Below, piece after piece: positions 49,157 to 59,546 of a stretch of 64,000 bases of DNA. Where the stretch lies: assembly GCA_019359415.1 (NCBI GenBank), contig JAHHHH010000010.1, positions 1 through 64,000 on the forward strand. The letters run 5' to 3'. Both the position numbers and the translations under genes were made by a program. Source of the DNA: Iphinoe sp. HA4291-MV1 (GTDB lineage: Bacteria > Cyanobacteriota > Cyanobacteriia > Cyanobacteriales > Nostocaceae). The stretch's first letter is position 1; every line of letters starts with the position of its first letter. The notes below the pieces were generated by a model, which saw only the letters and a program-made list of their open reading frames with translations, was not told the origin of the DNA and searched no databases.

Positions 49157-49242
49157 AATTCGTACTCCTCGTCGTGGATAAAGAGCGTGTTTCCTTCCTT
49201 GTAACCGATCGCTTCGATTTTGACGACTGATTCTATTTCCAA
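49153..49242 (-). CDS. 29-aa coupled small frame
   Basis: A TTG-started frame (MEIESVVKIEAIGYKEGNTL then FIHDEEYEL) whose stop overlaps the ATG of the 48908 gene (ATGA) and whose start overlaps the end of the membrane-protein gene. The sequence is protein-like and the coupling suggests it is translated. It may be a remnant of a partner protein. Confidence 0.4.
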   Translation of the reverse strand: MEIESVVKIEAIGYKEGNTLFIHDEEYEL

Positions 49243-49727
49243 AGACTAGGTGCTACAGCAGCAAGTAGTAACAAAAAGATTATTTCTAAAACATAAGTGA
49301 CAAACACACTGGGATTTAAAAAACCATCCCACAGATAACCATTACGTTTAATAGTAGAAGTACGTTTGAAAGCACGATTCCATCCGCCATAGATGCAAGG
49401 ACAGCGTAATCCGCTACTGGCGAGAATCGACTCAATTTCCGCAACACGGGGATAAAAACCGCGTTGAAAATGCTTCCATTGACTTTCCAAAATCCAGAAA
49501 AATACAGGAATCGCACAACCAACAACGGCTATAGTACCAACTTTCTGCTGTAGCATCAAAGCCAAAACCGCTCCTGTTCCCGTAATACCGAGAGCTTTGA
49601 TAACCCAAATTTGTTTGTTGTAATCTTCAATAGTACTTTGTAAAAAAAAGTATTCCTTCTCTAGTAAATTGCGTTCAAATTCCGTCAGAGACTGAGACTC
49701 AGCACTTGCAGGTGATTGATTTGACAT
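49233..49727 (-). CDS. Multi-TM protein, possible conflict-system effector
   Basis: A 164-aa protein. A helical cytoplasmic start (FERNLLEKEYFFLQSTIEDYNKQIW) leads to two close helices (ALGITGTGAVLALMLQ, VGTIAVVGCAIPVFFWIL), a loop, and a last helix (FVTYVLEIIFLLLLAAVAP). The layout resembles the 2TM/4TM effectors that accompany nucleotide- or NTPase-based conflict systems. It is divergent from the inactive-STAND operon, with a 187-bp gap. No catalytic motif is seen; a membrane-disrupting role is speculation. Confidence 0.55.
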   Translation of the reverse strand: MSNQSPASAESQSLTEFERNLLEKEYFFLQSTIEDYNKQIWVIKALGITGTGAVLALMLQQKVGTIAVVGCAIPVFFWILESQWKHFQRGFYPRVAEIESILASSGLRCPCIYGGWNRAFKRTSTIKRNGYLWDGFLNPSVFVTYVLEIIFLLLLAAVAPSLWK

Positions 49728-49914: not shown

Positions 49915-50886
49915 ATGAAGCAACGTGAAGAACTAGAAAACTTACTGAATTTACTAGAAGAGAAGATACTGTTTTTACAGACAGCAAAAGTAACTGCAAT
50001 AGACGCCGTAGCTCTTTTCAGTCTTCACAAGCAGATTGAAGAAGCTGAGAGTGAACGCTATAAAATCATACAGCAGATTGATAATTTAGAATCAGTCGCT
50101 TGCAGTGAAGAGTTATACCGTGCTTTATTGAAATTAGGGTATCGCGACCAAGTGCGCTCATTCCTCAAATTCCTTAAAGCACAATCAATAGGAGCTTTTC
50201 TCATTCACGGTTTGCTAGATCATGGACAACGTTGGTTACTGAATCGGTTAATCACACAGCATATTCGTTTCGGTACAATGGGCAAGATGGTGCGAATTGA
50301 ACTTGATCGTATCGGACGCAGAAGAGATATTTCTGCCTTGTGGCGCGAACTTGGTGGTTGTGTTGGCTTGGGAAGACAACACTCATCTACAGAAATTGCA
50401 GAACGAGTGTTTCACTGGTGGAAGACACAGAATGTCATCCTTGTCTTTCATGATGTAGATTGTATGCCAGCAGAGTACTTGCAAGAGCTACTTGACGAAT
50501 TTTGGTTACCATTGGCGAGTCAAGTACGAGAGATATCCCAAACAAAATACCAGTTACTGATGTTTTTGGTGGATTATGAAGGTTGTGTAGGTTGTCAGGA
50601 TACCATGTTCGTTGAGCAAGTAGAGCCAACTTGGGAACCGAGAGTTCCGATTAAACTGCCAACCATTGATCCGTTTTGCGATCGCACTCTCACTGACTGG
50701 ATTGAGATGGTTGAGACAGAGTTCGATACATTACCTCTGGTTGAAGTCATCTATCAAATAGAAGATTTAGTCAAAGAAATTTTGGAAAATAGTGATAACG
50801 GAGTTCCAGAACTCGCATTTTCTGAAATTTGTCATCGCTGCGGCTGCAATTGGTATGAAGAAAGGGAAAGATGGTTAAAGATTTGA
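49915..50886 (+). CDS. EAD plus inactive-STAND-like protein
   Basis: A 323-aa protein. Residues 1-65 form a coiled adaptor (LLEEKILFLQTAKVTAIDAV) that matches the N-terminus of the phosphoesterase at 58272. Residues 75-320 resemble a STAND NTPase that has lost its Walker A: GAFLIHGLLDHGQRWLLNRL stands where GxxGxGKS is expected, while NVILVFHDVDCMP keeps a Walker-B-like Asp. VRIELDRIGRRRDISALWREL and the ending YEERERWLKI complete the pattern. It overlaps the MoxR gene by 16 bp. It probably acts as a sensor or scaffold in a conflict system; family names follow published descriptions of EAD/iSTAND proteins. Confidence 0.8.
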   Translation: MKQREELENLLNLLEEKILFLQTAKVTAIDAVALFSLHKQIEEAESERYKIIQQIDNLESVACSEELYRALLKLGYRDQVRSFLKFLKAQSIGAFLIHGLLDHGQRWLLNRLITQHIRFGTMGKMVRIELDRIGRRRDISALWRELGGCVGLGRQHSSTEIAERVFHWWKTQNVILVFHDVDCMPAEYLQELLDEFWLPLASQVREISQTKYQLLMFLVDYEGCVGCQDTMFVEQVEPTWEPRVPIKLPTIDPFCDRTLTDWIEMVETEFDTLPLVEVIYQIEDLVKEILENSDNGVPELAFSEICHRCGCNWYEERERWLKI

Positions 50887-51809
50887 CTCACAAACAACTA
50901 GAGTACACTGGCAAAGTGCAGCCGCAGTTGGGAGAACGAGATGCAACTGGACATCTGTTGTATCCTTATTTGCCGAATGAGGAATTAATAGAAGCTGTTA
51001 ACCTGGCAATTTACCTTGAACGACCACTTTTGCTCAAGGGGGAACCGGGATGTGGTAAAACAAGATTGGCTCGTGCTGTCGCTTACGAACTTGATTTGCC
51101 GTTAGAAGCTTGGTACATCAAATCTACCACTCGCGCCAAAGATGGTCTTTATAATTATGATGCAGTCACTCGCTTACGCGATGCTCAACTAGCAGCGACA
51201 GGTCGTATCATCAAAGATGAGGATATCCCACGGATTAGCGATCCAGCTACTTATGTGAAGTGGGGACCATTGGGACTTGCTTTTCAAAACGAACAGCGGA
51301 CGGTGGTATTGATAGACGAAATTGATAAAGCTGACATTGACTTTCCCAACGACTTGTTATTAGAACTTGATGAGCAACGGTTTATTGTTGAGGAAACAGG
51401 ACAGGAAATTCAAGCAAAAGCACCGCCAATCGTTTTTATCACAAGCAACGATGAGAAAGATTTACCAGATGCTTTCTTACGACGGTGTTTGTTTCACTAC
51501 GTAGAATTTCCCAGCCCCGAAAGATTAGTAGAAATTGTGAATAACCACTTTCCTGATTCATCTAAAGCATTGGTAGATAAAGCTGTCGTTCGCTTCTTAT
51601 TGCTGCGGGAGGAAATGCGGAAAGATAAAGGGGAAGGTGGTAAGAAAGTGAGTACGAGTGAATTGATTGATTGGTTTCGAGTGCTGCGCCGTTATCCTCA
51701 AGACGAAATTCTGGCAAAATTGGATGGTAAGCTGCCATTCGCTGGCGTGTTGCTGAAAAGTTGGGATGATCATATTCGTCATTTGAGGCAAAACCGTGGA
51801 CGTGAATGA
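50871..51809 (+). CDS. MoxR-type AAA+ ATPase
   Basis: A 312-aa AAA+ protein with Walker A GEPGCGKT, Walker B VVLIDEIDKAD, sensor-1 FITSNDEKDLPDAFLRRC with the arginine finger, and an N-terminal (P)YLPNEELIEAVNLAIYLERPLLL. MoxR ATPases load or remodel vWA partners as chaperones; such a partner follows with a 14-bp overlap. All four operon genes overlap, which implies coupled translation. Confidence 0.92.
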   Translation: MVKDLTHKQLEYTGKVQPQLGERDATGHLLYPYLPNEELIEAVNLAIYLERPLLLKGEPGCGKTRLARAVAYELDLPLEAWYIKSTTRAKDGLYNYDAVTRLRDAQLAATGRIIKDEDIPRISDPATYVKWGPLGLAFQNEQRTVVLIDEIDKADIDFPNDLLLELDEQRFIVEETGQEIQAKAPPIVFITSNDEKDLPDAFLRRCLFHYVEFPSPERLVEIVNNHFPDSSKALVDKAVVRFLLLREEMRKDKGEGGKKVSTSELIDWFRVLRRYPQDEILAKLDGKLPFAGVLLKSWDDHIRHLRQNRGRE

Positions 51810-53172
51810 ATTACCACTTCAAGAACTTTTCACTCGTCTACGGGAAGCAGGCTTACCACTGGGGATTGATGAGTATCAGTTGGTTTTGCGATCGATGCAA
51901 GCTGGTTTTGGGATGAGTGATAAAGGGGCTTTGAAGCGGTTGTGTCAGACTCTGTGGATTAAATCTGCGGAGGAAAAGCAGTTATTTGAGTATCAGTTTG
52001 AACGAGTGATGAGTAGTGAGGGCGTCATCTTAAACTCGAAAACTCAATCTGAGCAGCGTAAGATTTTTCATGTCGTTCGCTACGGGATTATGGGGATTTT
52101 AAGTGTTGGAATCATCTTAAGTGTTGTAAGTAGTTCAAAAGAGTTAAATCAGACAGAAAATCAGAAATTACAGTTACCGAGATTACTTAATGCTGAGAAA
52201 GAGGTCGCACAGATAGAACAGTCAAACACAAACAGAAACCAAACAAATTGGATTTTTTGGAGTTGGCTATCAGTCATAACCTTAAGTAGTGGGTATGGTG
52301 GGTATATACTTTTCCGGCAGGTATTTCAGCAGAAAGCTCGACCGCGCATTGGTCACACAACCTCCGTTCCCGAACCAACTCCGAGTTCGTCTGCTTCTAA
52401 TGTACCTTCAAAATTGACACAGACAATAAAAGATGAGGTACAAGTCGCTCAAGCATTGCTGCAAACTACCAGCAGACAAGAGGAAATTGCTGACAGTCGC
52501 TTCATCCTAACAAACGAGTATTTTCCCGTTACCGAGCGGCAAATGAAACAGATTTGGCGCTACTTGCGGCGTCCAGTACGTGAGGGAGCAGCGACAGAGT
52601 TGGATGTGGAAGCAACCGTCAATCAGATTGGACGTAAAGGTCTACTGCTTGAGCCTGTGTTAGTTCCACGTCGGGTGAACCAAGCGGATTTGCTGTTACT
52701 TATTGATCAAGATGGCTCAATGGTACCTTTTCACACTTTATCGCATCGGTTAGCAGAAACCGCTTTGCGCGGAGGTCGTTTGGGCAAAGCTGGTATTTAC
52801 TACTTTCACAATTGCCCTTTAGATTATCTCTACCACGACTCCAATCATCAGGAAGCGGAGTTCGTCAGTGATGTTGTTACCTATGCTTGCTCTGAACGGA
52901 CAGCTGTGTTAATTTTCAGTGATGCTGGTGCTGCTCGTGGTGGTTATAATGAGGAACGCTACGAATTAACTAAAGAATTTCTTGCCCAGTTAAGACAGCG
53001 AGTGCGTTACATCACTTGGCTGAATCCAATGCCAAAAAAGCGTTGGCAGAAAACAACAGCCGGTGAAATTGCACATTTAGTACCGATGTTTGAACTCAGC
53101 CGCCGAGGTATGCAGGATGTTATTGGTGTACTGCGCGGACGCCCTACTAAGTTTGAGGGGCAGAAAAAATGA
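51796..53172 (+). CDS. Membrane-anchored vWA protein (MoxR partner)
   Basis: A 458-aa protein from GTG 51796. Residues 1-80 form a helical CoxE-like domain (LPLGIDEYQLVLRSMQAGF). Two hydrophobic helices (about 95-110 and 155-172) follow, so it is probably membrane-bound. Residues 270-445 form a von Willebrand A domain with a modified MIDAS, LLLIDQDGSMVPFH, and a second acidic loop LIFSDAGAARGG. Such proteins are remodelled by MoxR ATPases. It overlaps the next gene by 4 bp (ATGA). Confidence 0.85.
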   Translation: MDVNELPLQELFTRLREAGLPLGIDEYQLVLRSMQAGFGMSDKGALKRLCQTLWIKSAEEKQLFEYQFERVMSSEGVILNSKTQSEQRKIFHVVRYGIMGILSVGIILSVVSSSKELNQTENQKLQLPRLLNAEKEVAQIEQSNTNRNQTNWIFWSWLSVITLSSGYGGYILFRQVFQQKARPRIGHTTSVPEPTPSSSASNVPSKLTQTIKDEVQVAQALLQTTSRQEEIADSRFILTNEYFPVTERQMKQIWRYLRRPVREGAATELDVEATVNQIGRKGLLLEPVLVPRRVNQADLLLLIDQDGSMVPFHTLSHRLAETALRGGRLGKAGIYYFHNCPLDYLYHDSNHQEAEFVSDVVTYACSERTAVLIFSDAGAARGGYNEERYELTKEFLAQLRQRVRYITWLNPMPKKRWQKTTAGEIAHLVPMFELSRRGMQDVIGVLRGRPTKFEGQKK

Positions 53173-54602
53173 GTAAGATAAGACCTGAAGTTGCTAAGCG
53201 ACGCATTGAGTCTTTTGAAAAACGCTTTGGAAAAGCTCACCTGTATTTGGCGTATCATGCTGCTTTTCCGTTATCACTCACACCTGATTTGTTATATCGT
53301 TTGTGGGCTAACTTTCAGAGAGATATTCATGGTGAAGTGCTAGGCATTCCTTGGGTAGCTGTTGCTGATTTGCTACTTTCTAGCCTGTGTGATGAAGTTG
53401 GGCATGAACTCTACGAGATGGATTTAACAGTGCGAAATGGGCTGCTAAGTCGATTGCAGGAAGATGAAAAATTTGGTCAACAGCGGATTCATGAACTGTC
53501 AGACTTCTTACTTGAGTATGTACAGCAGCAGCTTTTGAGTGATGATCCCGACATTCGCGACTTTGCCCAGGCTCAACGGTGGACAGCTTTAGCATACACG
53601 CAACCTAGTAAGGTAGCTCGTGAATTGGAATTGATATTTCAGAATTTGGATCAGAAAGATAAAGCAGAATTGCTCCGAATAGCTTCATTGACGGAAACAT
53701 TTGCACAGCCATTGGCTGAGTTCCAACCGCTACTTATTTATGCTCGTGGAATAGCAAACTTTGCTCGTGGCAATTTAGACGCTGCAACATCTAAGCTTGG
53801 TGAAGTCTTTGAAGAAAGAAAGCAGATAAGCGTTGCTGGAGTTAGTCTGCCTGTTCCAGAAGAAATCAAGGCAAATTTTCCACCGCCTCAAGTTCCACCC
53901 TCTAAGAAGCAAAAATCATCTTTGCTTTCGCTGTTCACACAATGGCTAATTCCACTAAATGTTGTATCTCTGACTCTTATCTTAGGAGTTCCGACTCTTG
54001 TCTTAGGAGTGTTTCACTCCTTTGAAACTGCTTTTTTCTCTTCTGATAAAAATACTTCATCTCCTACTCCTCAATCACTAGCATCTGCATCTCCTACGCC
54101 AGCACCTACTGCTTCAGTTAAAAAGGATGGCAATTTAGTAGAAAATTCAAGCAATAGCAATAGCAATTTAGTAGAAAATTCAAGCTATATAAATTCGCTC
54201 TCCATCACAGAGATACCTATTACACAAGAGGATGCAGTAAAATTAATTAAGACGTGGTTACGAGCCAAGCAACAAATACTTGCTCCCCCTTACAATTCTC
54301 AACTTGCTACAGAATTGACAACGGGACAACAATATGGAAAAGTCAATGATTCAATCGATTGGCTCAGGAAAAACAATGCATACTACCAATATGGTCTACA
54401 GAGGATTGACAACGTAAACGAGCTTGCTGTCGAAGGCGAGCAAGCGACAATTCAAGTACAACTTACTGAAGAAATCACGCTTTTTGAAAAAAATAGAAAT
54501 ATTAATTCCAACGCGACTGATTTCAAAACTAGAACCGTTCGCTACACTCTCCAATTTGTAGATGGGCGTTGGAAAATAGCTTCATCTCAAGTAGTGGAGT
54601 GA
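53169..54602 (+). CDS. MoxR/vWA-associated membrane protein with IMS (ARC6-type) domain
   Basis: A 477-aa protein. Residues 1-240 form the helical domain found next to MoxR/vWA genes in cyanobacteria (KIRPEVAKRRIESFEKRFGKAHLYLAYHAAFPLSLTPDLLYRLW). A membrane helix near 265-282 (LNVVSLTLILGVPTLVLGVF) follows, then a Ser/Asn/Thr-rich linker. Residues 350-477 resemble the IMS/DUF4101 domain of ARC6-type proteins (EDAVKLIKTWLRAKQQILAPPY ... FVDGRWKIASSQVVE). In other cyanobacteria the same N-terminal domain is often joined to enzymes, so the IMS domain is likely the variable output part. Confidence 0.75.
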   Translation: MSKIRPEVAKRRIESFEKRFGKAHLYLAYHAAFPLSLTPDLLYRLWANFQRDIHGEVLGIPWVAVADLLLSSLCDEVGHELYEMDLTVRNGLLSRLQEDEKFGQQRIHELSDFLLEYVQQQLLSDDPDIRDFAQAQRWTALAYTQPSKVARELELIFQNLDQKDKAELLRIASLTETFAQPLAEFQPLLIYARGIANFARGNLDAATSKLGEVFEERKQISVAGVSLPVPEEIKANFPPPQVPPSKKQKSSLLSLFTQWLIPLNVVSLTLILGVPTLVLGVFHSFETAFFSSDKNTSSPTPQSLASASPTPAPTASVKKDGNLVENSSNSNSNLVENSSYINSLSITEIPITQEDAVKLIKTWLRAKQQILAPPYNSQLATELTTGQQYGKVNDSIDWLRKNNAYYQYGLQRIDNVNELAVEGEQATIQVQLTEEITLFEKNRNINSNATDFKTRTVRYTLQFVDGRWKIASSQVVE

Positions 54603-54758
54603 ACACTAAATTAATTATCATATCCATATACTATGTTAGCACTATATGACGCACCAAATATTCACTAAAAAAACAATCTAAAATTAATTCGCGCCCCTCT
54701 TTTCGAGACGAAACGCAGCAATAAAAATTACGCCTCTCATTGTAGTGCGATCGCCCCT

Positions 54759-55391
54759 CTAACCCTCCATCAAAATCCCCACTAAAATCTGCATCAATAC
54801 TTCCAAATCCGTAGGAACTCGATACAGCATCAAATGCTGAGTGACTACCCGTGAAGAACGATGAAAACTCCCAAACTGCCAAATATCGCCTGTTGTCACC
54901 GCACCATAAAGAATCGAATCTTCCGACTCCACCCAACTATCAAGAGCAATCAACTCAGCCGCTAATTGAGTAAATCCCCGTGTTAAATCTGCCTGCTTTG
55001 CTTCCACAACCAGCACATTGTGTTTTGATTGTATATAGTAGTCCAACTCTCCTCTGAGAAACTGATCCACCTCAATTGGATACTCAATATTTACTGTAGC
55101 CTCTGTGATATGCGCCACTTCCAAAACAATAGGCGCAATTAGCACTTCACGTCGCGCCGCCTCACTAGTTAAACTCACACGAGCAATTCCTTCTTCTAAC
55201 CGCTGGCGCAAATCTGGGAGTCTAGTAAATTGACTTGAGGAAGCCATTGGTAAATGGATTGTCTCCCGAATCAAACTGACTCCCAACTCCCGCAGAATAT
55301 CCGCTGGCGCAAACTTCATCAGAAAGTAACTGCGGAAAGTATAGGTTTCATTAGGTTTCAGAATCAGGGGACGTGGCGTGCGCTTAGTCAT
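54759..55391 (-). CDS. PD-(D/E)XK-like protein, paralogue of the 36698 gene
   Basis: A 210-aa protein. ELDYYIQSKHNVLVVEAKQADLTRGFTQLAAELI has the Asp and E-x-K of the nuclease fold, and ILYGAVTTGDIWQFGSF matches the paralogue at 36698. The function is unknown. About 45 bp of its 3' end recur at 55467-55515, a footprint of a lost tandem copy. Confidence 0.75.
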   Translation of the reverse strand: MTKRTPRPLILKPNETYTFRSYFLMKFAPADILRELGVSLIRETIHLPMASSSQFTRLPDLRQRLEEGIARVSLTSEAARREVLIAPIVLEVAHITEATVNIEYPIEVDQFLRGELDYYIQSKHNVLVVEAKQADLTRGFTQLAAELIALDSWVESEDSILYGAVTTGDIWQFGSFHRSSRVVTQHLMLYRVPTDLEVLMQILVGILMEG

Positions 55392-55466
55392 TGCATATGC
55401 TTCCCATACATATCATATATATATTGATGGCAGCTATCACTTCTGAGTGTAGTGCGATTGGAAAGA

Positions 55467-55515
55467 GCGATCGCCCCCTCCTAACCCTGCATCAAAATCC
55501 CCACTAAAAACCAGG
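55467..55515. repeat. Duplicate of the 3' end of the 54759 gene
   Basis: CGATCGCCCCCTCCTAACCC and CATCAAAATCCCCACTAAAA match 54748-54790 with a few differences. It lies just upstream of the intact gene, as would remain after a tandem duplicate was deleted. Confidence 0.65.
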
Positions 55516-55564
55516 TATCAGTAAGTCCATACTGTAGGCGATGGTTCTTAGTTTTTCTTGTTTG

Positions 55565-55831
55565 TCAACTTTCATCTTTATAAACTTCACTACGATGTCC
55601 TACTCTAATCACAGTCACTAACAAAATATCATCTTGTATTTCATAAATAACTCGGTAGTCTCCTACTCGAACACGATATGAATTGTCATCACCTTGTAAC
55701 TTTTTAACCCCGTTTGGACGGGGTTCTATTGCTAATTCTTGAACTTTTATCTCAATTCGTTCTTTAATATTTGCTGGTAATTTCTTGAGTTGTTTTATTA
55801 CACCTTTGGTAAATTCAATTTGATAAGTCAC
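55565..55831 (-). CDS. RelE/ParE-type toxin
   Basis: An 88-aa protein (MTYQIEFTKGVIKQLKKLPANIKERIEIKV...NSYRVRVGDYRVIYEI) with the RelE fold and the YRVRVGDYRVIYEI core. RelE toxins cut mRNA on the ribosome. It overlaps its antitoxin by 4 bp and appears intact. Confidence 0.9.
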   Translation of the reverse strand: MTYQIEFTKGVIKQLKKLPANIKERIEIKVQELAIEPRPNGVKKLQGDDNSYRVRVGDYRVIYEIQDDILLVTVIRVGHRSEVYKDES

Positions 55832-56043
55832 GCAGATTCTCTCTTATATTCGTCCCAAGATACTGTACCGTTAATTCTGATATCTTCCCTAGCTTCTTTA
55901 ATGGCTTTAAGGTCGTCTTCTTCCTCTTCTTCATCTATACGTTTTAATAATGCGAGTATTTCATCTAAAGTGCTATCGTAAGCTTGGTTAAGCAATACGT
56001 TGATAGCTTTGATAATTTCTTCTCTTTCACGTTCGGTTTTCAT
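55828..56043 (-). CDS. Antitoxin of the RelE-type pair
   Basis: A 71-aa acidic helical protein (MKTEREREEIIKAINVLLNQAYDSTLDEIL then ALLKRIDEEEEEDDLKAI) upstream of and overlapping the RelE toxin, the usual order. The acidic tail would bind the basic toxin. No DNA-binding motif is certain. Confidence 0.75.
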   Translation of the reverse strand: MKTEREREEIIKAINVLLNQAYDSTLDEILALLKRIDEEEEEDDLKAIKEAREDIRINGTVSWDEYKRESA

Positions 56044-56045
56044 GT

Positions 56046-56185
56046 TCAGACTTCTTCTTTACTTAACCATTCTTTAAATATTACTTCAGCCAGTGTACTA
56101 AGGCTTAAATCATGCACTACTGCTTTAAACGTTCTGGTTGGGCGAACCACCATAACCAGCACTGCGTATCCAGCAAAAGTTTCAC
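56046..56185 (-). pseudogene. vapC: Truncated VapC (PIN) toxin joined to another remnant
   Basis: From GTG 56185, overlapping the antitoxin stop, the frame reads MKLLLDTQCWLWWFAQPERL and stops after KQ at 56117. This is the first 22 residues of a PIN toxin, including its first catalytic Asp. Another frame then ends VHDLSLSTLAEVIFKEWLSK(EEV) with a stop at 56046, the C-terminus of a different small protein. So the toxin is lost and its antitoxin is orphaned. Confidence 0.7.
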
Positions 56186-56427
56186 TCCTGCCTACCCTCA
56201 AATGCTGCTAAGATATCTTCTGGCAAGTGAGCATTGAAGTCTTCTGGCACTACGAAACGCCCTCGATCCTGTCCTAAACTACTCCGTCGATTGGATGAGG
56301 CTCGAAACGGAACTAACTTAGCGATCGGAATACCTCGGTTTGAAATAATGATTTCTTCTCCAAGTTCTACCCGCGACAAAAGCCGTGAGAGATTCGTTTT
56401 AGCTTGGTGGACATTGACTGTTTCCAT
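56182..56427 (-). CDS. Phd/YefM-type antitoxin
   Basis: An 81-aa protein starting METVNVHQAKTNLSRLLSRVELGEEIIISNRGIPIAKLVPF, the classic Phd/YefM fold that binds DNA and neutralises a PIN or RelE toxin. Its toxin downstream is truncated. Confidence 0.85.
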   Translation of the reverse strand: METVNVHQAKTNLSRLLSRVELGEEIIISNRGIPIAKLVPFRASSNRRSSLGQDRGRFVVPEDFNAHLPEDILAAFEGRQE

Positions 56428-56486
56428 CTTTTTTGTAAACTAAGTCTAGAAACTAAGTTGATTATAAGTTTATTTTTACTTAATTT

Positions 56487-57371
56487 GTGAAAACTGACAG
56501 CATTTTCTATCGCCTATTTCAAGAATTTCCCAGCATCTTCTTTGAACTCATCGGTGAATCACCACAAGAAGCTAACGCTTATCAATTTTCATCAGTTGAA
56601 GTCAAACAAACAGCCTTTAGGATTGATGGCGTCTTTCTTCCTGCCAAAAAAAGCGACAACCCAATTTATTTTGTGGAAGTCCAATTTCAGTGCGACTCAG
56701 AAATTTATGCGCGACTGTTTGCAGAAATCTTTTTGTACCTGAGACACAATCAACCAGAAAATGACTGGCGTGCTGTCGTGATATATCCTACCAGAAATAT
56801 AGATACAGCAGAGAGAAAACATTATCGTGAATTCTTTACCACTCAGCGTGTGAGCCGTATCTACCTTGATGAATTAGGTGAAGCTGTCTCCCTACCAATT
56901 GGTGTTGCAACTGTCAAGTTAGTGATTGAGAATGAAGATACAGCAATCGAGCAAGCAAGGGAGTTGATAGATAGAACTCAACAGGAGATAAGTGTACAAC
57001 AGCAACAGCAGCAATTACTACAATTAATAGAGACGATTTTAATTTACAAGTTTCCGACAATGAGTCGAGAGGAGATAGAGGCGATGTTTGGATTGAGTGA
57101 GTTAAAGCAGACAAGATTTTATCAAGAAGCATTCGAGGAAGGCAAGCAAGAAGGTAAGCAAGAAGGTAAGCAAGAAGGTAAGCAAGAAGGTAAGCAAGAA
57201 GGTAAGCAAGAAGGTAAGCAAGAGGGACGTTTGGAAGCTCAACTAGAAGCAGTACCCCGTTTATTAGCATTAGGGTTGACTGTAGAGCAGATAGCACAGG
57301 CGTTAGGCTTAAGCGTACAGGAAGTGCCGCAATCAGCGCAACAACAACCTTTCAATGAAAGTAATAGTTGA
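56487..57371 (+). CDS. Rpn/DUF2887-type PD-(D/E)XK protein with GKQE repeats
   Basis: A 294-aa protein from GTG 56487. Residues 1-130 fit the Rpn (PDDEXK transposase-like) family: FFELIGESPQEANAYQF, then FRIDGVFLPAKKSDNPIYFVEVQFQ with the Asp and E-x-Q, and DWRAVVIYPTRNID. Residues 215-245 are seven GKQE units, then a helix-turn-helix-like tail (LGLTVEQIAQALGLSVQEV). The 3' part was duplicated: a second copy of the last 100 codons lies at 57368. Related proteins are linked to DNA cutting and recombination. Confidence 0.85.
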   Translation: MKTDSIFYRLFQEFPSIFFELIGESPQEANAYQFSSVEVKQTAFRIDGVFLPAKKSDNPIYFVEVQFQCDSEIYARLFAEIFLYLRHNQPENDWRAVVIYPTRNIDTAERKHYREFFTTQRVSRIYLDELGEAVSLPIGVATVKLVIENEDTAIEQARELIDRTQQEISVQQQQQQLLQLIETILIYKFPTMSREEIEAMFGLSELKQTRFYQEAFEEGKQEGKQEGKQEGKQEGKQEGKQEGKQEGRLEAQLEAVPRLLALGLTVEQIAQALGLSVQEVPQSAQQQPFNESNS

Positions 57372-57676
57372 AAAAGGTTGACAAAGAATCAATAGCTATT
57401 TTAATTTACAAGTTTCCGACAATGAGTCGAGAGGAGATAGAGGCGATGTTTGGATTGAGTGAGTTAAAGCAAACAAGATTTTATCAGGAAGCATTCGAGG
57501 AAGGCAAGCAAGAAGGTAAGCAAGAAGGTAAGCAAGAGGGACGTTTGGAAGCTCAACTAGAAGCAGTACCCCGTTTATTAGCATTAGGGTTGACTGTAGA
57601 GCAGATAGCACAGGCGTTAGGCTTGAGTGTACAAGAAGTGCAAAAAGCAGCGCAACAACAACTTTCCAATGAGTAG
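57368..57676 (+). pseudogene. Tandem duplicate of the 3' end of the Rpn/DUF2887 gene
   Basis: A TTG-started frame of 102 codons identical in most positions to codons 185-290 of the gene before it (LIYKFPTMSREEIEAMFGLSELKQTRFYQEAFEEGKQEG), but with three GKQE units instead of seven. The flank GAAAAAGGTTGACAAAGAAT occurs at both 57370 and 57682, so a unit of about 310-360 bp was copied in tandem. It lacks the catalytic part. Confidence 0.8.
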
Positions 57677-57915
57677 TCGCTGAAAAAGGTTGACAAAGAA
57701 TCAATAGCTATCAGAAGATAGTAACCCAAGTTGCTAGTCATGCGATTGGCTTTGCCACTGCCCCTTCTCCTGACGGAGACGCCTTCGCGCAGCGTGTCGC
57801 AGACAAGGGCGAAGGGCAATCACATACAGCAGTTTTCTTTTAGGTAGGCATTGCTCACCAATATCTCAAATGTCTATTAAATAAGCTTTTATGCACAATA
57901 CCCACCCTACCATTT

Positions 57916-58251
57916 GTGGTCTTAGAACTCCTAGACGAGTATCAGCATTTCACTGATGAGTCTTTGGAACTCGTACACGAGTATCAGCACTTCACTAATG
58001 AGTCTTTGGAACTCGTACACGAGTATCAACACCTCATGAATGAGTCTTTGGAACTCGTACATGAGTATCAGCACTTCACTAATGAGTCTTTGGAACTCGT
58101 ACACGAGTATCAACACCTCACGAATGAGTTTTTGGAACTCGTACATGAGTATCAACACCTCACGAATGAGTCTTTGGAACTCCTAGAGGAGTATCAGTAC
58201 TTCACTAATGAGTCTTTGGAACTCGTACACGCAATCTTCCAATCAAAATAA
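57916..58251. repeat. 42-bp tandem repeat, open on both strands
   Basis: About eight units built on GAACTCGTACACGAGTATCA and CTTCACTAATGAGTCTTTG. The plus frame (GTG 57916) reads 14-residue repeats ELVHEYQHFTNESL for 111 codons and stops 20 bp before the phosphoesterase gene. The minus frame is also open (FQRLISEVLILVYE). ACTCGTACACGAGT in each unit is nearly palindromic. It might be coding or be a minisatellite. Confidence 0.8.
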
Positions 58252-58271
58252 TAGCGGAAAAGGATTGACTG

Positions 58272-59546
58272 ATGACCAATAGCCAAGACCTACGCCAGCA
58301 ACTTCAAGAAAATTGTGAACTGTTGCAAACCAAGATTCTATACTTAGAAAAAGAAAAGATTGTTAACGCAGATCCCATCAGAGGTTTCCAGCTAGAGCAG
58401 GAGATTAAAAAACTTAGGGTACAACTTAAAGAACTCAAACAGCAAATTGAGGAACTAGAGCAAGCATCAGCAACAGTCAGCCAGAGAGAGGTTACTGGAG
58501 AAAACTTAAATTCTGCACTAACACCTGGTATTGCTATACCCCTAATGCACATTCTCCACCTCTCTGACTTACATTTTGGCACTACCGATGAAGCTTACAA
58601 TTGGTATGACCAAATTGCACAAGATTTATACTCTGAACTCAACTGCGAAAAGCTTGATGCTTTGATACTCTCTGGTGATATTGCAAATAAATCAATTCCG
58701 CAAGAATACGAAGCTGCCAAACACTTTCTCAACAATCTTTGCCAGGAATTTCAACTACAGCCTGAGAATATAGTAATGGTTCCTGGTAACCATGACCTCA
58801 ACTGGAAAATAGCTGAAGCAGCTTATACACTTGTACGACGTAAAGATTATACTGAATCCTTAGATGAAAATTATATTATTGATAAAGGCGAATATATTGA
58901 AGTTGTTGACCAAGAAAAGTACAAGCAACGATTCACTCACTTCAGCAAGTTTTACCAAGATATCAAAGGAGAACCTTATCCTTTAGAATACGACCAACAA
59001 GCTACCCTACACCACTTTCCCAAACAAAACCTACTCATTTTAGGACTCAATTCGGCTTGGCAACTCGACCATCATTATAGATCCCGTGCTGGTATCAATG
59101 CTTGCGCTCTTACCAAAGTACTAACCCAGATTCGCCGAAATCAAGACTATAAAAACTGTGTCAAAATAGCAGTTTGGCATCATCCCCTTAACAGCGCTTT
59201 TGAAGACCGCATTAAAGATGCTGGCTTTATGGAAAGGTTAGCACAAGCGGGTTTCCGCTTTGCTCTTCACGGACACATTCACAAAGCTGAGAACAGCCTT
59301 TACAGCTACGATGTCACTACAAGTGGACGCAAACTCAACATTATCTGTGCTGGAACATTTGGCGCACCAATTCGCGAATGGGTTCCCGGCTATCCACTGC
59401 AATACAACTTACTGAAATTAGAAGGAAATAAGCTGACAGTCAATACCCGCCGTCGCGAAGAACTCAATGGTGCTTGGAAACCTGATGCACGATGGCTTAT
59501 GGGTGCGGGGCGGAACCCGTTACCATACTATGAGATGGAATTGTGA
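58272..59546 (+). CDS. EAD plus calcineurin-like metallophosphoesterase
   Basis: A 424-aa protein. Residues 1-70 form a coiled adaptor (NCELLQTKILYLEKEKIVNA) that matches the N-terminus of the inactive-STAND protein at 49915. Residues 97-400 form a metallophosphoesterase with all metal motifs: HLSDLHFG, LILSGDIAN, VPGNHDLNW, WHHPL and LHGHIHKAE. In EAD systems a shared adaptor brings such an enzyme to its sensor, so this is the likely effector; nucleotides or nucleic acids are possible substrates. Confidence 0.85.
   Translation: MTNSQDLRQQLQENCELLQTKILYLEKEKIVNADPIRGFQLEQEIKKLRVQLKELKQQIEELEQASATVSQREVTGENLNSALTPGIAIPLMHILHLSDLHFGTTDEAYNWYDQIAQDLYSELNCEKLDALILSGDIANKSIPQEYEAAKHFLNNLCQEFQLQPENIVMVPGNHDLNWKIAEAAYTLVRRKDYTESLDENYIIDKGEYIEVVDQEKYKQRFTHFSKFYQDIKGEPYPLEYDQQATLHHFPKQNLLILGLNSAWQLDHHYRSRAGINACALTKVLTQIRRNQDYKNCVKIAVWHHPLNSAFEDRIKDAGFMERLAQAGFRFALHGHIHKAENSLYSYDVTTSGRKLNIICAGTFGAPIREWVPGYPLQYNLLKLEGNKLTVNTRRREELNGAWKPDARWLMGAGRNPLPYYEMEL

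Follow-up and report, generated by a model that had tools for sequence, protein, structure and literature searches.

A MoxR-vWA-iSTAND ternary system of Iphinoe sp. HA4291-MV1 and a phosphoesterase that shares its N-terminal adaptor

Ternary systems built from a MoxR ATPase, a vWA protein and an inactive STAND (iSTAND) protein are described in PMC7159879 and PMC8195603. Those of PMC7159879 occur in multicellular cyanobacteria and have an iSTAND/MoxR/vWA core, an adaptor or an enzyme at the iSTAND N terminus, and variable C-terminal modules of membrane or wall type. In a minority of the iSTAND systems described in PMC8195603, which also covers iSTAND2 systems, vWA-L and the variable module are placed on a gene of their own beside the vWA gene. 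A locus of this class lies within positions 49,915 to 59,546 of the window, by which we mean the whole 64,000-nucleotide stretch of contig JAHHHH010000010.1 from the cyanobacterium Iphinoe sp. HA4291-MV1 that was analysed.

The locus agrees with the described systems in its core, in the adaptor on its iSTAND protein and in its separate fourth gene, though there are differences. The variable slot holds an ARC6-like IMS domain, the adaptor is EAD9-like and falls below the Pfam cut-off, and the enzyme partner, a phosphoesterase, is encoded 3.7 kb away. In addition, the identity of the vWA-L part is deduced here from position and conservation. We consider it likely that the locus is a MoxR-vWA-iSTAND ternary conflict system with an enzyme coupled in trans through the adaptor-docked phosphoesterase, and such a system is probably directed against invaders.

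An earlier note on this DNA, made from the letters alone, had suggested that this exact set of parts might be undescribed. That is less well supported, since a fourth gene of its own (vWA-L plus a variable domain) and the use of calcineurin-type phosphoesterase domains in effector or signalling roles by related systems (VMAP, GAP1-N1) are both in print (PMC7159879, PMC8195603). Only the IMS domain in the fourth-gene slot was not met with in these papers: the word 'ims' occurs 0 times in the two main texts, taken without supplements and figures. This combination may be new.

The four-gene operon

Four genes on the forward strand occupy positions 49915-54602 and overlap by 16, 14 and 4 bp in gene order; these open reading frames (ORFs), as well as that of the phosphoesterase at 58272, are found where the earlier note had put them. 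The first gene (49915-50886, +) encodes a core protein of 323 amino acids (aa) in which an N-terminal EAD9-like helical hairpin (residues 1-60) is followed by an inactive STAND domain (residues 71-219). The latter matches Pfam family PF19995 at 1.9e-33, with 116.6 bits against a cut-off of 24. Its Walker A motif is lost, as the glycines of G-x(4)-G are invariant across 17 aligned rows and the lysine is replaced by an invariant glutamine (Q105). Foldseek searches with the predicted structure returned chains of plant NLR and ORC/Cdc6 proteins (best 4.9e-5) with low TM-scores, 0.27-0.39 among the 20 best.

The second gene (50871-51809, +) encodes a 312-aa MoxR-type AAA+ ATPase (AAA_5, 1.3e-13) with both a Walker A (GEPGCGKT) and a Walker B motif (VVLIDE). 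A mark of the ternary class is a MoxR protein that lacks N- and C-terminal extensions of the VMAP type; in the present protein the AAA domain takes up residues 52-205 of the 312. The product of the third (51796-53172, +) is a 458-aa vWA protein (VWA_CoxE, 1.4e-12) with a hydrophobic segment at residues 93-111, as judged by hydropathy, and the sequence DQDGS at residue 304, which resembles a metal ion-dependent adhesion site (MIDAS). The usual form of this motif is D-x-S-x-S; in 15 variants gathered with the pattern D-x-x-G-S-M, the third residue is D, K or R and not Ser. The fourth gene (53169-54602, +) encodes a vWA-L-like part (residues 1 to ~236), a hydrophobic segment (263-281), a Ser/Pro-rich linker and an ARC6-like IMS domain at 356-471 (PF13355, 4.2e-26; 92.2 bits, over the cut-off of 22.8). 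Pfam, motifs and hydropathy thus bear out the earlier reading of the four products: an iSTAND protein without Walker A, a MoxR ATPase, and two membrane proteins, one with a vWA domain and the other ending in IMS. With an inactive STAND protein as third component beside an adjoining MoxR ATPase and vWA protein, the locus is, by sequence, a MoxR-vWA-iSTAND ternary system, a class already published (PMC7159879, PMC8195603).

The MoxR and vWA proteins missed the NCBIfam cut-offs for an ATPase-vWA pair of the MadB/MadC type (94.6 of 475 bits and 23.6 of 600 bits, respectively). In PADLOC, the iSTAND, vWA and fourth proteins had no match, and the MoxR protein gave fragments of IetA and mad8 (best 7e-8).

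The gene order, which the earlier note had proposed to survey in other Nostocales, is kept elsewhere. Relatives were sought in 193 genomes of the family and 195 of the order, with an adaptor threshold of E 0.001, and the full order iSTAND-MoxR-vWA-fourth gene is present in 12 of 20 fetched regions. One of these operons has an inserted IscB gene and in another the fourth gene runs off the contig; the remaining 8 comprise regions fetched because of a stray adaptor, decayed loci and that of the second iSTAND gene of the Iphinoe genome. In 8 of the 12 full operons, the fetched stretch also contains a separate adaptor gene. The IscB gene (NF040563, 1.1e-135; L042:6355-7602, on the same contig as locus L200, G327:C190) sits between MoxR and vWA in the operon of a close relative. 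The genome of Iphinoe sp. itself encodes two iSTAND proteins, one of which bears the adaptor. The second gene (L217:6401-8511, -, on contig C30) has a MoxR gene nearby (53% identical); no adaptor match was obtained for it, nor any vWA match in the 18-kb stretch fetched.

An adaptor shared with a phosphoesterase

The adaptor-phosphoesterase gene (58272-59546, +) lies 3.7 kb downstream of the four-gene block on the same strand. Its product has an EAD9-like hairpin at residues 1-64 and a calcineurin-like metallophosphoesterase domain at residues 92-338. The N termini of this enzyme and of the iSTAND protein align without gaps, with 18 of 56 residues identical, and both contain the motifs D-x4-F-x-L and QQI-x2-LE on which the earlier note had based its claim of a common adaptor. 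When the phosphoesterase N terminus was searched against its own 7.36-Mb genome at a maximum E of 1, it matched only itself and the iSTAND N terminus (E 0.0019). A 12-row profile that included the iSTAND copy and left out all phosphoesterase adaptors scores the phosphoesterase adaptor at 1.1e-8 (30.4 bits after a composition correction of 12.0 bits), whereas the next best of 634 window reading frames reaches E 1.4. By sequence, the claim holds and the homology of the two adaptors is real. They lie 8.4 kb apart, and no third copy is found in this genome, which is 95% complete, at E 0.001.

Structure prediction, which the earlier note had proposed as a check, was carried out on the adaptors singly and gave helical hairpins with the same turn. 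In the AlphaFold2 model of the iSTAND protein (17-row alignment), helices span residues 2-27 and 31-89, and in that of the phosphoesterase (13-row alignment) 2-31 and 35-72. The breaks between the helices (28-30 and 32-34) coincide in the alignment. Model confidence per ten-residue block is 72-94 over residues 1-60 of the former and 62-88 over residues 1-70 of the latter; the hairpin is a predicted fold.

The published EAD pattern is an adaptor found on a core protein and on enzymes, and PMC7159879 groups EAD9 with the adaptors that recruit signalling components; a literature search found nothing on EAD9-type adaptors beyond that paper. Pfam EAD models gave no match to the window proteins at E 1, neither window adaptor reaches the cut-off of PF19962 (EAD9), and this family has 0 matches in the genome. 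When 13 adaptors were compared with Pfam, EAD9 was the family matched by most (7 of 13 at E <= 1, best 1.7e-4). In the genomes searched, some hits of the adaptor profile coincide with EAD9 hits, a few of them over the cut-off (G243:C138, 41.1 bits; G327:C263, 29.1 bits); the 13-adaptor profile at E 0.001 found none of 30 loci fetched with PF19962. A profile-profile alignment of the adaptor with EAD9 is gapless over 56 columns (P 3.3e-6) at 16% identity. Its score of 30.1 is reached by none of 100 heptad-block shuffles, the best being 28.4. A rotation by 7 columns leaves the alignment largely intact and scores 29.0; the reversed profile scores 18.1 and the best of 100 column shuffles 16.4. The window adaptor, like EAD9, is about 60 residues long, and we settled on calling it EAD9-like.

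Copies of the adaptor are found in 79 of the 193 family genomes and in 19 of the 195 order genomes. The iSTAND domain, present in 98 family genomes, accompanies it: an iSTAND match is present in 55 of the 79 genomes with the adaptor vs 43 of the 114 others (Fisher P 1.9e-5, with kinship not removed). In genomes with the adaptor and no iSTAND match (for example G094, G243 and G317), the adaptor may work with a core of a different kind. Partner ORFs came from loci fetched at E 1e-5, which is not an even survey, and the weakest (~1e-5 to 1e-7) may be non-members; of 55, nine were set aside as fragments or truncated copies (3) or as shorter than 100 aa (6). The 46 scanned carry CHAT (18), caspase (9), phosphoesterase (5), TIR (2), trypsin (2) and phosphorylase (1) domains, counted over the best 25 of 28 Pfam families, where one protein can be counted under CHAT as well as caspase. 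The adaptor is thus a small non-enzymatic domain on the core protein, with more copies on effector or signalling enzymes that often adjoin it.

Core and partner adaptors of cognate pairs resemble each other more than those of shuffled pairs do (121.5 vs 102.4, 0 of 5000 shuffles; 19 pairs thinned from 26, with genome kinship kept). That an adaptor is most closely related to its neighbour holds on average and fails for the window pair, which ranks 8 of 18. Of the earlier EAD interpretation, the kinship of the adaptors and their division between a core and enzymes stand; the match within the window pair is not specially close. Two iSTAND domains, those of L045 and of the window gene at 49915, are 91% identical with adaptors at 60%, suggestive of adaptor exchange or fast change.

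Exchangeable enzymes and fourth-gene modules

The phosphoesterase domain matches Metallophos (PF00149) at 6.4e-13, with 50 bits against a cut-off of 21.5, and keeps all five metal-site motifs (SDLH, SGD, PGNHD, WHH and HGHIH). Foldseek placed 9a6c_B, a crosslinking-based model, first (4.5e-16), followed by Rv0805 (4.7e-11) and GpdQ (2.9e-10), which we take to be class III phosphodiesterase-like metallophosphoesterases. Because of these fold matches, a nucleotide or phosphodiester substrate is plausible for the modelled enzyme. The anti-phage phosphoesterase model DS9_1 (NF053862) matches at E 3.4e-27 but far below its cut-off (95.4 of 420 bits). PADLOC returned an 'Effector, endonuclease' model (2.8e-23) and PDC-S60 (3.4e-23).

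At 1e-20, the enzyme domain is found in 34 of the 193 family genomes, with 41 matches, 30 of which were fetched as loci. The earlier note had called for a survey of EAD-phosphoesterase genes; an N-terminal adaptor is fused to the enzyme in four genomes, that of the window, G327 (85%), G213 (68%) and G205 (67%). In G273 the adaptor is C-terminal, and in an ORF of 1510 aa in G094 (L216:6522-11054) it separates two halves of the match to the enzyme. The adaptor tree requires 4 changes of the phosphoesterase label, 3 of them forced by starred branches. The three positions and the tree changes fit repeated fusion; gains and losses are indistinguishable on branches this long. In G330, a CHAT-carrying adaptor gene lies 50 bp behind the fourth gene. 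Its adaptor is about 80% identical to that of the G213 phosphoesterase (53 of 66 residues; 155 of 198 in DNA), so the enzyme has been exchanged on one adaptor. No other single observation speaks as clearly for the adaptor, rather than the enzyme, as what links these genes to the core.

The fourth protein is also modular, with an N terminus of ~236 residues that is constant in relatives and a C terminus that changes behind a conserved linker. The constant part is most readily taken as vWA-L, from its position and conservation. Among 36 distinct C termini, two (one truncated, one with a weak match) were dropped before counting; the other 34 match 52 Pfam families in all, and the tallies cover the best 25 of these. 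Commonest are FGE-sulfatase-like (12 of 34), CHASE2 (3) and AAA_35 (3) modules, and single cases include IMS, PG-binding, periplasmic-binding, macro, TIR, kinase, GH25 and CHAT domains, among others. The window protein is the only one, among the matches listed for the 193 family and 195 order genomes (overlapping samples, the family list ending before its weakest matches), that matches both the fourth-gene N terminus and IMS. Elsewhere in the genome, IMS (4.3e-25) ends a Ser/Thr kinase-like protein on contig C112 (Pkinase, 7.8e-18), behind a hydrophobic stretch, which suggests a receptor-like place for the domain. A protein of G291 looks alike by eye in its kinase-hydrophobic-IMS arrangement. 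We know of no catalytic role for IMS; it is doubtful as an effector and fits better as a sensor.

Neighbouring genes supply two more candidate members. A DUF2887 gene (56487-57371, +; PF11103, 1e-88) is upstream of the N-terminal adaptor-phosphoesterase gene in all four genomes. It adjoins the enzyme gene in G327, G213 and G205, and in the window a gap of 0.9 kb with two small ORFs lies between. In L206, L207, L210 and L211, an adaptor-only ORF takes the corresponding position and is likewise preceded by a DUF2887 gene, and similarity at the DNA level extends to this gene in L199, L201, L203, L206, L207, L210 and L211. The adaptor-only ORFs, which stand where the phosphoesterase gene would be and encode 66-98 aa (L206:9206-9427, L207:14693-14914, L211:9864-10064 and L210:9560-9856), are possibly decoys, inhibitors or remnants. 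Directly before the window phosphoesterase gene, the 3' part of the DUF2887 gene is present once more (57368-57676), followed by a short-tandem-repeat ORF (57916-58251).

The other candidate is a small hydrophobic protein whose gene lies beside the iSTAND gene and is divergent from it (49233-49727, -). SLATT and other known families were considered for it, and neither Pfam nor NCBIfam gave a match. Its relatives found by tblastn (L203, 69%; L252, 70%; L253, 76%) adjoin the iSTAND gene in L203 and L252 and are near a phosphoesterase gene in L253.

Direction of the signal

Two directions have been proposed for systems of this kind. In PMC7159879, the iSTAND or VMAP protein senses and the variable vWA-side module executes; for VMAP-type systems, PMC10907252 has the vWA-side module sense and the VMAP N terminus execute. 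In an outside-in scheme for the present locus, the IMS domain would lie outside the cytoplasmic membrane and bind or monitor something there. Remodelling by the vWA-L/vWA pair, together with the MoxR ATPase, would relay the signal, and the iSTAND core would then change state. Its EAD9-like hairpin could bundle with that of the phosphoesterase, concentrating the enzyme or switching it on, and hydrolysis of a nucleotide or nucleic-acid phosphodiester would harm or arrest the infected cell. Given the system and its adaptor-coupled phosphoesterase, we would give this direction roughly an even chance. It is favoured because enzymes crowd the adaptor slot, the vWA-side modules are mostly not toxin-like and IMS ends a kinase-domain protein. 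The complete proposal is possible, though less likely than not: an outside-in immune receptor in which vWA, MoxR and iSTAND connect an extracytoplasmic IMS domain to an enzyme that a polar helical hairpin (core-type to partner-type) docks in trans, with receptor and enzyme exchangeable independently on a fixed relay.

Several observations weigh against the outside-in scheme and its adaptor-coupled enzyme. The phosphoesterase gene is outside the operon, and the intervening 3.7 kb holds other genes, including a toxin-antitoxin-like cluster (55565-56427, -) that encodes a ParE-like toxin and a Phd/YefM-like antitoxin. The window adaptors are only 31-32% identical and rank 8 of 18 cores in the cognate test; in 24 of the 79 adaptor genomes there is no iSTAND match, so that the adaptor may serve something else or cores were missed; and in four of the 12 full operons (L200, L208, L209 and L212) a separate adaptor gene was not found in the fetched stretch. 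Adaptors sort by role (core vs partner) and not by locus, with 6 tree changes vs 30.9 when shuffled, on a tree (67 columns, 91 rows) with 35 open forks of 88, long branches that meet at the window phosphoesterase adaptors, and roles set by simple patterns. As they sort by role, the pairing may be heterotypic. Furthermore, the fourth-gene slot holds enzymes too (TIR, CHAT, kinase and GH25), and a further IMS copy in the genome forms an ORF of 123 aa on C30, with no kinase attached.

The same system could also run in reverse, a reading compatible with the ternary system itself and one that we regard as possible, short of probable. The iSTAND protein would sense an invader in the cytoplasm, IMS would be an effector or a wall or membrane anchor freed or activated via vWA and MoxR, and the phosphoesterase would make or remove an activating nucleotide signal. 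This is the model of Kaur in PMC7159879, and it agrees with the grouping of EAD9 there and with the fast evolution of iSTAND domains, which are proposed sensors in BREX too (PMC12839542). The enzymes among the fourth-gene C termini, at 1 of 34 each, are consistent with it, but the commonest of these modules (FGE-sulfatase-like, CHASE2) and the single PG-binding, periplasmic-binding and IMS cases are not toxin-like, enzymes dominate the adaptor slot instead, and IMS is not known to have a catalytic role.

Two other explanations concern the link to the phosphoesterase. The adaptors may be related by descent while the enzyme is a passenger or serves another partner, which we consider unlikely. 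The occurrence of its catalytic domain in large HEAT, TPR, NACHT and NB-ARC proteins (HEAT repeats in 4, TPR in 1, a Ras/Roc-type GTPase with NACHT in 1 and CHAT with NB-ARC in 1 of 7 scanned) would suit such a passenger, as would the ordinary rank of the window pair and the 24 adaptor genomes that lack an iSTAND match. Against it, the locus association recurs in G205, where the DUF2887 and adaptor-phosphoesterase pair stands beside or after a decayed iSTAND operon with no MoxR match, and since the 7.36-Mb genome has no third adaptor at E <= 0.001, no other partner of the adaptor family is visible. That the N termini are generic coiled coils made alike by convergence is highly improbable. Their composition is heptad-like, the profile score carries a 12-bit bias correction, and heptad-block shuffles nearly reach the EAD9 comparison score (28.4 vs 30.1). 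We nevertheless reject convergence, as the held-out profile gives 1.1e-8, with no other window frame below E 1; the turn position and conserved residues are shared, the adaptor has been fused repeatedly to one set of effectors, and the own-genome search yields no unrelated coiled coil at E <= 1.

The locus is a compact place to ask which way signals run in MoxR-vWA systems. IMS is its one candidate receptor and the phosphoesterase its one candidate enzyme, and at E 0.001 the genome holds a single adaptor pair. The relatives offer natural swaps at both ends, with IMS, FGE-like, CHASE2 and TPR modules on one side and CHAT, caspase, TIR and phosphoesterase enzymes on the other, including two adaptors that are 80% identical and carry different enzymes.

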